A stretch of 36,948 nt of DNA from a virus. Positions 116 to 36,948 of the stretch are shown here, piece by piece; the stretch's first letter is position 1; every line of letters starts with the position of its first letter. Position numbers and translations under genes: made by a program. The stretch spans positions 1 to 36,948 of the IMG/VR virus record IMGVR_UViG_3300043410_000605, one strand, 5' to 3'. The notes below the pieces were generated by a model. It was not told where the DNA came from. It made no database searches and was given only the letters and a program-made list of their open reading frames with translations.

Positions 116-478
116 TCTGATTAGTTCGGTTGTTGGCATCTTAACATAACTCACTCCATCCTTTTTTTTAATGTCACCAACCTTATAATATCTCCTAGCT
201 TTAATCCTTAAAAACTCTGCTCTGATAAACACAATCCTATCTCTAAGGTCCAAGTTAAAAGCAAAGAACTCTACTTTGGCATCTGCAATCCCTGATGGCA
301 TTCCATCTCTTTCATACTCTAACAAAAAATAACCCTTTCGCAAAGCATCTGTATTATGAATAATTAATACTTTGGTATTTTTAGCAAATAGCCTTAACAC
401 CTGATAATAACCATCATTTGCTTTAGCTTGTTCTATTTCAAACTTAGTCTTTTTTCTATCTGTATAAAACTTACCCAT
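107..478 (-). CDS. Conserved-type hypothetical protein after dnaB
   Basis: A 123-residue protein of unknown function, last gene of this part of the early operon before the circle junction. I start it at the ATG at 478 (MGKFYTDRKK); an in-frame upstream start at 487 would be TTG and is less likely. The ATG overlaps the dnaB stop by 8 bases, so translation is probably coupled. The protein is rich in charged residues (FELEYERDG-like and RIKARRYYKVGDIKKKDG stretches), with no membrane segment and no motif I recognise. Its position suggests a role in DNA metabolism, but this is only inference from context. Confidence 0.75.
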   Translation of the reverse strand: MGKFYTDRKKTKFEIEQAKANDGYYQVLRLFAKNTKVLIIHNTDALRKGYFLLEYERDGMPSGIADAKVEFFAFNLDLRDRIVFIRAEFLRIKARRYYKVGDIKKKDGVSYVKMPTTELIRWA

Positions 479-1805
479 GATTCTCAAAAGTTACCGTTTC
501 ACCTATAAACCTAAGCGGTATGTTTTTAGTTTGTCCATGTCTATTCTTCTCTACCTTACAAATGACTAGATTCTCACAGCTATATTCTGTGCCACCTATA
601 TTTACAGGTTCAGTCATTTCGTAGTAAGATGGTCTCATAAGCATGATAACAATATCGGCATCTTGTTCTAAGCTACCAGACTCTCTAAGGTCAGATAACT
701 GAGGCATCTTGTCTGCTCTTTCTTCTACCCTTCTCGAAAGTTGCGATAAGGCGATAATAGGTACCTCTAACTCTTTAGCTAACGCTTTTAGGCTACGAGA
801 TATTGTGCTTACCTCTTGCTCTCTGTTTTGGTTTTGTTTGCCGTTAGCCGTCATGAGCTGTAAATAATCGATAAAAATGACTTTTATGCCATATTTCTGC
901 TTCATAACGGTAGCTTTAGCCCTAAGTTGTTGGATGCTAATACCGCCTGTATCGTCTATATAGATGGGTGATTGTAATATCTTGTCATCAGCCTTCATAA
1001 CTACTCCTTTTTCGTAATCATTCATATTATTCGTTCTAAGGCGTTTTAAGGGCACTTGAGACACGATTGACTCCATCCTCTCAATTAACTGTTCGGAGCT
1101 CATTTCGAGGCTAAAAATGGCCGTAGAAACGTTATTTAGGATTGCTAAGTGATATATACTTGAAAGCATCATGGCTGTCTTACCTGCACCTGGCCTTGCA
1201 GCCACTATAATCATGTCTGGTTTGCACCAACCTGCTATGGTATGATTCAGTTCGCTAAATCCAGTATTAAACCCTAATAACTCACCTTTTTGAGCCATGT
1301 CTCTTTTTTCTATGATGGCTAAAACTATCTGCTCAATAGTCTTTTCGTTAATATCCCCAAACTCTTGAATCTTTATTAGTTCACTATTTAGTGAACTTAT
1401 TAAATCAACTGATTCATTATCAACGTCTAAGAAACCATTTACTTGTTGCTTTAGTAGTAAATAGGCTTTACGCTTCTTAAACATCTCAACTACCATCTCA
1501 ATGTGCGTATTAAGGTGGTTAGTTCGTACAATGGCATCAGTAAGCTTAGATAGGTAATAAGCACCACCGACCTCTTGCAGTGACTTATCGTTCTGCATCT
1601 TTTGAGCAACCGTAGTGATGTCTATAGCTGTATTGCTATTATACATCTCTTGTAGTGTTTTAAAGATTTTTTGGTGTTTAAGGTCGTAAAATACCTCAGG
1701 TGTTAGCATACCAATCACCAATGGTATTACATTCTTATCTATTAATAATGAGCCAAGTATATTTTGCTCAAGTTCTATGTTTTTAGGTAGGATGACAGCT
1801 TCCAT
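471..1805 (-). CDS. dnaB: Replicative DNA helicase, DnaB family
   Basis: A 444-residue hexameric replicative helicase that unwinds DNA ahead of the fork using ATP. The N-terminal DnaB domain (about 5-105) contains the usual NILGSLLID and VGGAYYLSKL stretches. The RecA-like domain has Walker A ARPGAGKT (203-210), Walker B FIDYLQL (311-317) and the C-terminal signature SDLRESGSLEQDADI (371-385). Length and motif order match bacterial DnaB, so it is likely active. Its start overlaps the stop of the winged-helix gene upstream by one base (TAATG), which suggests paired production of helicase and a loader or organiser. No primase domain is present. Confidence 0.97.
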   Translation of the reverse strand: MEAVILPKNIELEQNILGSLLIDKNVIPLVIGMLTPEVFYDLKHQKIFKTLQEMYNSNTAIDITTVAQKMQNDKSLQEVGGAYYLSKLTDAIVRTNHLNTHIEMVVEMFKKRKAYLLLKQQVNGFLDVDNESVDLISSLNSELIKIQEFGDINEKTIEQIVLAIIEKRDMAQKGELLGFNTGFSELNHTIAGWCKPDMIIVAARPGAGKTAMMLSSIYHLAILNNVSTAIFSLEMSSEQLIERMESIVSQVPLKRLRTNNMNDYEKGVVMKADDKILQSPIYIDDTGGISIQQLRAKATVMKQKYGIKVIFIDYLQLMTANGKQNQNREQEVSTISRSLKALAKELEVPIIALSQLSRRVEERADKMPQLSDLRESGSLEQDADIVIMLMRPSYYEMTEPVNIGGTEYSCENLVICKVEKNRHGQTKNIPLRFIGETVTFENHG

Positions 1806-2419: not shown

Positions 2420-2423
2420 AAAT

Positions 2424-2508
2424 AAAAAATGCCCTCAGATTTGCTGGTAGGACGAGTACCAACGCCTCTTTGGGCTAAAAAATTCTAAATGTCATCTCGT
2501 CCATGACA
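2424..2508 (-). promoter_or_regulatory. Two hairpins with complementary 7-base loops before the replication genes
   Basis: On the minus strand, hairpin 1 (2508-2490) has a 6-bp stem TGTCAT/ATGACA and loop GGACGAG. After a U-rich linker, hairpin 2 (2475-2431) has outer stem GCCC/GGGC, a short AGA/TCT stem and inner stem GTTGGTA/TACCAGC (one G-U) closing loop CTCGTCC. The loops are exact reverse complements, so a kissing interaction could form. Hairpin 2 is followed after one base by U6 (2429-2424), like an intrinsic terminator, and then by the ATG at 2419. It may be a conditional terminator or a translation switch. I know of no named RNA class that matches. Confidence 0.65.
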
Positions 2509-2516
2509 CTACAAAG

Positions 2517-2744
2517 TTAAGATTCTTTTTTAATCCTAAAAGCCACCACTCTATCCTTCGTTCCATCGTTAATCAAGAACTTCTTACGAGCTAATGGGTT
2601 TAAGCTATCTCTCAAGGCTTGAGCATTGATTTTAAACTTCCTAGCAGCCTTAGAAATTGAGTCAAAATACACCTCTTCTTTCGTATCTATATACACCATT
2701 CTTACAGGTATATTATTCTCCAATCCTTTTATCTCTTTTGCCAT
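2517..2744 (-). CDS. Small DNA-binding protein resembling a NUMOD-type module
   Basis: A 75-residue protein. The central part VYIDTKEEVYFDSISKAARKFKINAQALRDSL has the pattern of NUMOD1-like DNA-binding modules: a short strand with a bulky residue, then S-I/V-x-x-A-A-x-x-F, then a helix-turn-helix-like segment. Such modules are usually attached to homing endonucleases, and a GIY-YIG enzyme with a similar tail lies about 0.8 kb upstream (3515-3940). Here the module stands alone. It could be a degraded endonuclease remnant or a small regulator. It overlaps the end of the 40-residue membrane ORF before it by 16 bases. Confidence 0.7.
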   Translation of the reverse strand: MAKEIKGLENNIPVRMVYIDTKEEVYFDSISKAARKFKINAQALRDSLNPLARKKFLINDGTKDRVVAFRIKKES

Positions 2745-3297: not shown

Positions 3298-3522
3298 TTA
3301 TTTGTTTTGGTTATAATTCATATTGTAATATAAATCTCCGCTTGTTAGCTTTTTATTTACTTCCATAGCTTCATCCATATCACAAGCCTCATATCCATTT
3401 TCATAAGCATCTATTATCTGCTCTTTTTCTTTTTCAAGGTATTTTTCCCAATGAATCGTTACCCCCATAGTTTTAAGATGTTCAACATTTTCCATTAATT
3501 CTTGCATTGCACTTTTACTCAT
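3298..3522 (-). CDS. Hypothetical protein (74 aa)
   Basis: A mainly helical, charged protein: MSKSAMQELMENVEHLKTMG, then IHWEKYLEKEKEQIIDAYENGY. The acidic tail ends in NMNYNQNK, where the last codons fall in a gene-junction repeat. The start overlaps the stop of the GIY-YIG gene by 8 bases. No known domain is visible and the function is unknown. Confidence 0.7.
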   Translation of the reverse strand: MSKSAMQELMENVEHLKTMGVTIHWEKYLEKEKEQIIDAYENGYEACDMDEAMEVNKKLTSGDLYYNMNYNQNK

Positions 3523-3940
3523 AATATTTAAATTTTAGTTTTTTAAATGTTTTGTGTTGTAAATGTCCTTTTAAATGTTTTGTTAAGTTTCCAGACTTTG
3601 CATTAAAATACCTTTCGCATTCTCTTACACTATTAAATATCATACCATTATCAATACATTGTATTTTCTTTTGTTTATAACTACTTGGCTTATCTTTTAA
3701 GCATTTATCTGATTGTATTTTCCTCCAATTATTACCATATATGTAACCTAAATAAGCATTTGTTATTTGATATTCTTCTTCAAATCTTAATGCTTCTTCT
3801 TTAGATTCAAATTCAGCAATAACCTTTGCATTAGTTATATCCCTATTGGATATATTTTTATGCTCCCATAATCTTTTACTTAAATCTCTTTTTGTTACAC
3901 CACAATACTTTTCGTTTGGTAATACATATACTTTATACAT
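3515..3940 (-). CDS. GIY-YIG family endonuclease with C-terminal DNA-binding module
   Basis: A 141-residue protein. The GIY-YIG core is at residues 3-60: YKVYVL (variant of the GIY strand), YCGVT (YIG strand), the Arg in KRLWEHK (R23) and the metal-binding Glu in FEEEY (about 55). The C-terminal part (92-140; KIQCIDNGMIFNSVRECERYF...NLTKHLKGH) looks like a NUMOD/IENR-type DNA-binding module. This layout fits a free-standing homing endonuclease, a selfish gene that cuts competing genomes. Two very short coupled ORFs and a -7 promoter box lie just upstream. I see no intron or intein in the window. Confidence 0.85.
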   Translation of the reverse strand: MYKVYVLPNEKYCGVTKRDLSKRLWEHKNISNRDITNAKVIAEFESKEEALRFEEEYQITNAYLGYIYGNNWRKIQSDKCLKDKPSSYKQKKIQCIDNGMIFNSVRECERYFNAKSGNLTKHLKGHLQHKTFKKLKFKYYE

Positions 3941-36591: not shown

Positions 36592-36904
36592 CTTGATTAA
36601 ATATTTTAACAATTATAGTTTCGTCTCTTAGTTGTTGGCATAACATTGCAATCCCTCCACACATTCCTAGATTCGTTAAAAACTCCATTTGCTCTACAGA
36701 TGGTCTATCACCTATAGCCTTAACCTCGCATCCTATAAACTGACCATACTTTTTAGAATAGCCAATAATATCAGGAACTCCTTTTCTACCAATGAAGCTT
36801 CTGCCTTTAACAGCTAAGTTATTATTACGCCAAACATCATTACCTCTACTCTTCAAATATTCCATCATCATCTTGGTTAAATCAGCCGCTGTTAGGTATG
36901 CCAT
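36545..36904 (-). CDS. VRR-NUC domain nuclease
   Basis: A 119-residue protein of the PD-(D/E)xK superfamily. GVPDIIG (42-48, D45) and CEVKAIG (59-65, E60 and K62) with a later Q72 are the active-site residues of VRR-NUC nucleases, which in phages act as single-domain structure-specific enzymes such as Holliday junction resolvases. The gene spans the contig join (start at 36904, equal to 71). A -7 box TAACTTTG lies 5 bases before the ATG. Confidence 0.92.
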   Translation of the reverse strand: MAYLTAADLTKMMMEYLKSRGNDVWRNNNLAVKGRSFIGRKGVPDIIGYSKKYGQFIGCEVKAIGDRPSVEQMEFLTNLGMCGGIAMLCQQLRDETIIVKIFNQDGESKDYKFTEGELR

Positions 36905-36948
36905 AATTTCAAAGTTACTATATATTTTAATATATTATACTAAGCCCA
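36834..36948. repeat. Terminal direct repeat, right copy
   Basis: Identical to bases 1-115; see there. It indicates a circular map. Confidence 0.95.
36910..36917 (-). promoter_or_regulatory. Promoter -7 box TAACTTTG before the VRR-NUC gene
   Basis: TAACTTTG on the minus strand (also seen at 77-84) fits TAnnTTTG and ends 5 bases before the ATG. It could give the second half of the early operon its own near-leaderless transcript. No -33 element is seen. Confidence 0.4.

Follow-up and report, generated by a model that had tools for sequence, protein, structure and literature searches.

Many Flavobacteria phages are predicted, from comparison of their genomes, to open their replication-initiator message with a conserved kissing-hairpin RNA element, a 5' leader in which the loops of two successive hairpins pair with each other. 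The existence of the two-hairpin structure with its loop pairing is near-certain from the covariation among relatives, and the predicted kissing helix usually consists of seven Watson-Crick pairs. The element is compact, shows exceptionally clear loop-loop covariation and is found on several dissimilar initiators. It probably limits the amount of initiator that is made, and on balance we favor, with moderate confidence, a 5' attenuator in which the kissing loop contacts a terminator hairpin and would thereby set initiator expression by transcription attenuation. To our knowledge, the control of replication-initiator dose in lytic phages is largely unknown outside a few models. If attenuation by a kissing loop in cis is true, the element would add a natural design of RNA switch, and its loop pairs could be used directly in RNA engineering.

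Organization of the leader in the window

The window, that is, the whole stretch of DNA that was analysed, is an IMG/VR record of 36,948 bases. Its ends form an exact 115-base direct repeat (1-115 and 36834-36948), which suggests that the contig is probably a circular genome in full length. Cellulophaga phages have the portal proteins most similar to the one encoded here. The features of the leader and of the genes around it are given in Table 1.

The leader of the window folds with a minimum free energy (MFE) of -28.9 kcal/mol (z = -3.2), a stability reached by none of 200 shuffled sequences, and both loop 7-mers are unique to the leader within the 37-kb window. Four bases separate the end of the TAACTTTG box from the predicted start of hairpin 1. 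An earlier, sequence-only reading of this DNA had described two minus-strand hairpins with a U-rich linker, loops GGACGAG and CTCGTCC, and a U6 run at 2424-2508; we find the same sequence and fold, and these coordinates are correct to within one base, but the gap between U6 and ATG, given there as five bases, is four. In the family to which the window belongs, the base stem of hairpin 2 has just 4-5 bp and is followed by internal loops, which makes it weaker than the other, plain terminators of the phage. The nearby GIY-YIG-like gene has a short plain leader, in contrast to the kissing leader of the initiator.

Table 1. Position of the leader, its predicted parts and the neighboring genes in the window.
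Feature	Position	Strand	Description
GIY-YIG-like gene	3515-3940	-	weak NUMOD1-like tail; own TAGTATATTTG promoter
Upstream gene, small, NUMOD1-like	2744-2517	-	adjoins the leader
Whole leader	2519-2420	-	between the NUMOD1-like gene and the HTH_36 initiator
Leader, 5' half		-	TAACTTTG-TAGT-GTCAT[GGACGAG]ATGAC-ATTTAGAATTTTTTA; loop 1 in brackets
Leader, 3' half		-	GCCC-AA-AGA-GGC-GTTGGTA[CTCGTCC]TACCAGC-AAA-TCT-GA-GGGC-A-TTTTTT-ATTT-ATG; loop 2 in brackets
Bacteroidota -7 promoter box	2512-2519	-	TAACTTTG; its TAA also ends the reading frame of the upstream gene
Predicted transcription start	2507	-	+1 = G, first nucleotide of stem 1; from the position of the box
Hairpin 1, 5'-terminal	2491-2507	-	stem GTCAT/ATGAC; from sequence, fold and covarying stem
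Loop 1, GGACGAG	2496-2502	-	partner of loop 2; from covariation in relatives
Linker, U-rich, ATTTAGAATTTTTTA	2476-2490	-	about 15 nt; from sequence
Hairpin 2, terminator-like	2431-2475	-	base stem GCCC/GGGC, inner helix AGA/UCU, upper stem GUUGGUA/UACCAGC
Loop 2, CUCGUCC (DNA CTCGTCC)	2450-2456	-	apical in hairpin 2, partner of loop 1; from covariation
U-tract, A U6 AUUU	2420-2430	-	between hairpin 2 and ATG; U6 at 2424-2429, ATG at 2419
HTH_36 replication initiator, 204 aa	1805-2419	-	Pfam PF13730, E = 1.4e-11
DnaB-type replicative helicase	471-1805	-	next in the operon after the initiator; Pfam PF03796, PF00772

Covariation of the two loops

Relatives were fetched through the initiator and the helicase, and through DNA patterns that covered the linker plus the 5' portion of hairpin 2 and left the loops out; the covariance models R1 and R2 include the hairpins and leave out the kiss pairing. 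Together the models gave 258 matches in viral contigs, comprising 116 distinct elements. Despite the blindness of the models to loop pairing, the loops are exactly complementary in 116 of the 116 distinct elements, none of which has a G-U pair in the kiss. Seventeen different loop pairs occur, 16 of 7 nt and one of 6 nt within an 8-nt second loop. In the alignment, 100% of the cells of the kissing helix are paired and both sides have changed in six of its seven pairs, counts that do not represent independent events since the sequences are related. With the kiss included, each of the five helices has support: 96.1% of cells are paired, whereas shuffles reach 73%. None of 500 shuffles attained the covariation score of the whole structure. 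RNAalifold recovers both hairpins unaided from an alignment of 12 sequences.

Joining the 16 seven-base loop types in a minimum spanning tree takes 20 compensated changes, which is a lower bound. Direct evidence that the two loops change together comes from two pairs of near-identical elements: L187 and L209 are set apart by a single outside base and a single compensated position within the loops, L326 and L333 by one outside base and three compensated loop positions. The sequence-only reading had named compensatory changes between the loops as the support to look for and a loss of complementarity in relatives as the outcome that would refute it; the former are found among the 116 distinct relatives with their 17 loop pairs, and the latter in no relative that retains the element. 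It had also failed to match the element to a named riboswitch or antitermination class. No Rfam 15 family scores above its gathering threshold, a relaxed search giving one sub-threshold match (19.4 bits against 58).

A sequence-blind descriptor (complementary loops, GC-rich hairpin base, U-tract and ATG), run over both strands of 5.97 Mb of fetched loci, returned 299 matches, which comprise 296 known elements, the same element in L172, a new variant in L061, and L186, the one apparent false match, which seems to be due to chance. Blastn searches of named phages with the element sequences of the window and of L040, and with five concatenated element sequences, found no element. The DnaB query found no relative in bacterial genomes, and no copy was found in a host genome or prophage. 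The only pattern match in the bacterial-genome search, in a Bathyarchaeota MAG, is unsupported by the covariance model, and a match in a Spirosoma plasmid (32 matching bases) is just a plain terminator. Three matches to the hairpin-2 DNA pattern lie on one very large viral contig of 364,702 bases (L295, L320); the covariance model did not confirm them.

Genes behind the leader and sequence-unrelated versions

An open reading frame of at least 60 codons begins directly after the U-tract in 257 of the 258 matches. The downstream genes usually encode dissimilar initiators (HTH_36, Lin1244_N and others lacking a Pfam match) and sometimes HNH, GIY-YIG/T5orf172 or PDDEXK-like endonucleases, with two methyltransferase-like genes in addition, such that homing endonucleases and methyltransferases share one leader with the initiators. 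Loose BLAST clustering unites 233 of the 257 downstream ORFs, probably through common C-terminal parts. An endonuclease/methyltransferase-type gene lies between element and initiator in L033, L056, and L068, as if mobile genes were repeatedly occupying the expression slot of the leader. Including these three, an endonuclease or methyltransferase gene stands directly behind the leader in L033, L056, L068, L071, L211, and L335. The loop pair GTACCAG/CTGGTAC was seen with HNH-type endonuclease genes only (L074:616-708, L108:3701-3794, L172:2855-2946, and L291:9711-9804), and the leader at L366:1957-2049 precedes a gene whose 382-aa product combines an ABC-ATPase-like part with a GNAT acetyltransferase domain.

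R2 matches 31 of 50 whole records. In many of the R2-negative records the initiator starts with MSQFYTT and lies a few bases after the upstream gene, with neither promoter nor leader. As the leader is present or absent among relatives and stands before varied genes, it is a portable, optional unit that does not belong to any single protein. An element that precedes dissimilar initiators, endonucleases and methyltransferases alike is unlikely to depend on an initiator-specific partner, and autoregulation by the initiator was ruled out as a general rule because one element type precedes such dissimilar genes.

The same layout also occurs before initiators in leaders of unrelated sequence. In the uncultured phages L061, L409, L412, and L413, the loops are GTAGTG with CACTAC (L061, invisible to the model, in which the latter lies in a loop on an 8-bp upper stem of the terminator), TAGCAG/CTGCTA (L409), ATGCAG/CTGCAT (L412), and TAGCCGA/TCGGCTA (L413, compensated relative to L409). 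L409, L412, L413, and L420 were reached through distant initiator relatives. Polaribacter phage P12002L (L420) carries the loops GTCGTAG/CTACGAC and a U9 tract, and the presence of this related form in cultured Polaribacter phages makes the element experimentally testable. Tenacibaculum phage Gundel_1 and Cellulophaga phage phi46:3, the latter with an HNH endonuclease gene behind the leader, follow the same principle: in both, a stretch of the 5' leader is complementary over 9 nt to the loop of the terminator, which was recognized by eye, the loops being larger than the script caught. As the individual shuffle p-values of these unrelated versions range from 0.05 to 0.00015 on hand-chosen segments, they count as supporting evidence only. 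Stem and U-tract form a typical terminator in L413, L420, and L453; such stronger terminators at the same place strengthen the earlier description of the second hairpin as terminator-like. No convincing kissing leader was found in Riemerella phages RAP44 and CRP6 (the latter with a 6-base match and no U-tract) or in Cellulophaga phage phi39:1. In a Shine-Dalgarno phage (L418:1345-1465), the leader of the initiator contains a U7 terminator, and the loop of this terminator, CTTGCAC, finds a match in GTGCAAG upstream; hairpin 1 is missing from its MFE fold, and a kiss is possible. With regard to what is expected of a riboswitch, bases of the linker and internal loops are partly conserved, the stems, loops and internal loops vary, and versions unrelated in sequence exist.

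Proposed function and comparison with known systems

The portable 5' leader starts with its promoter, followed by hairpin 1 at the 5' terminus, the linker, the terminator-like hairpin 2 and its U-tract, and lastly ATG; to judge by this layout a promoter, a hairpin, and a U-tract precede the start codon in one predicted transcript, as in an attenuator. In Flavobacteria, the TAnnTTTG box spans -12 to -5 (PMC9723704, PMC6847099). Of the 107 distinct elements that have a box, 95 show a distance of 2-4 nt from its end to the longest stem-1 pairing, and the predicted +1 is G or A in 91 of the 102 elements with a strict box. The linker, counted after the longest stem-1 pairing, measures 11-15 nt in 109 of 116 elements. 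Among the 116 parsed elements, 114 have 5-7 T within the first 7 nt after the GC-rich stem of hairpin 2, and ATG mostly follows this hairpin by 9-13 nt.

We envisage that RNA polymerase would make hairpin 1 at once and hairpin 2 afterwards. Whether the GC-rich base of hairpin 2 closes over the U-tract would determine if a leader RNA of approximately 85 nt is released or transcription continues into the initiator gene; the kiss would set the probability of either outcome, and the result would be a low, buffered dose of initiator. A closed hairpin 2, its base 12-15 nt upstream of ATG, should also hinder ribosomes. What the comparison establishes is the structure, the pairing of the loops and the order of parts from promoter to start codon; termination at the U-tract, a kiss that favors or opposes it, and any trigger are inferred. 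By rough lengths in the window, the linker (about 90 Å) compares with a stack of 87 Å, and kiss and base stem may coexist; as both may be compatible with the length of the linker, geometry cannot give the direction of the effect of the kiss. Linker and arm length correlate negatively (-0.53), which does not support a linker fitted to the stack.

The start codon context bears on both transcriptional and translational readings. Among distinct elements, 93% place a T at -3 of the gene they lead, whereas the other genes of the window favor A at -12 (87%), -11 (79%), and -3 (67%). In F. johnsoniae, adenine at -3 favors initiation (PMC6847099), and the U-rich context of the element should thus be a poor one; that it is kept points to another constraint, most simply the U-tract of a terminator. 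Alternatively, transcription might pass the element, and the kiss might lock or open hairpin 2, which in turn would govern ribosome access to the ATG 11 nt further on. This translational switch, which we consider unlikely but not far-fetched, agrees with the U in place of A at -3 and with the position of the hairpin 2 base at -12 to -15, where structure tunes initiation in F. johnsoniae. Against it stands the U-tract, which persists directly after the GC-rich stem in almost every copy and becomes a typical terminator in L413, L420, and L453; an element acting on translation alone would have no need of it.

We give little credence to a function as a 5' stabilizer of the mRNA, in which the predicted +1 would be base-paired at the foot of hairpin 1 and the kiss would form a compact, nuclease-resistant 5' end. 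In 97 of 109 elements the predicted +1 indeed coincides with the first base of stem 1, 4-6 nt ahead of loop 1, but in about 12 members the box is farther upstream and +1 falls 11-25 nt before loop 1, and the U-tract and the fixed distance to ATG would be left unexplained.

Similarly speculative is a replication circuit confined to the sense strand, with no antisense gene, in which the leader carries both partners of the lock and terminated leaders signal copy number in trans; that such a design could let phages diversify the lock sequence freely, 17 pairs being seen, is an idea just as doubtful. As a sensor of copy number, terminated leaders would kiss nascent leaders in trans through loop 1 and loop 2, shutting off the initiator, for which we see only a slim chance. 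Every leader bears both complementary loops, RNA-RNA contacts are used by plasmid rep leaders, and there is mostly one element per genome, with different loop pairs within each of the four genomes that have two. Yet these differences are not significant given the type frequencies, and the kiss in cis should beat pairing in trans.

It is highly improbable that the element acts as DNA, as an integron attC-like recombination site or a folded single-strand origin. It is located where genes are swapped or inserted, and attC sites occur in P12002L (PMC9892861), but the attC end boxes RYYYAAC and GTTRRRY are found together in 0 of 116 elements, the layout from promoter to ATG is fixed, and copies also precede genes away from rep. 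Also against a role as DNA, sense-strand G-U outnumbers A-C in A2 (17 to 3) and A6 (50 to 21), though not in A4 and A5, probably because the middle helix does not form in that subtype. The probability that the two loops are complementary by chance is practically negligible: a loose descriptor of two hairpins with complementary loops finds approximately 0.5 chance matches per 37 kb, and the single sighting in the window, which the sequence-only reading had held unlikely to be fortuitous, was suggestive and not conclusive by itself, but covariation in the relatives refutes chance.

In the open-access literature, a scope outside which many subscription papers fall, no description of the element was found, and it is apparently undescribed so far. 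Loop-loop contacts are known from several plasmids. ColE1 RNAI and RNAII pair through fully complementary 7-nt loops, as in the phage leader, but between RNAs from opposite strands, whereas the phage loops would pair in cis on the same strand. The repZ/repA leaders of IncI, IncB, and IncL/M plasmids form an intramolecular loop-loop pseudoknot that acts on translation, through coupling to a leader peptide and an antisense RNA. They would resemble the phage element in that two stem-loops of a rep leader pair within one molecule, and differ from it in the leader peptide, none having been identified in the phage leader. Attenuation in pT181 and pIP501 also involves loop-loop contact. The attenuators of pT181 repC and pIP501 repR share with the phage element an initiator gene, a terminator-like stem-loop and U-tract before the start codon, and control by RNA pairing (PMC5703833). 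Their partner is an antisense RNA acting in trans, with a pre-emptor, whereas the partner loop of the phage leader lies in cis; no antisense TAnnTTTG box was seen over the element in the window, one antisense match lying inside the rep gene (+ strand, 2041) as one of many in coding DNA. In the same group of bacteria, the Flavo-1 RNA motif of Flavobacteriaceae is also a 5' region with structure (PMC9723704), but the phage element matches no Rfam family at gathering threshold. Plasmids provide precedents for a terminator-like stem-loop with poly-T immediately upstream of rep, and the nearest functional kind is the plasmid rep attenuator (PMC5703833), from which the phage leader differs by carrying both partner loops in cis.
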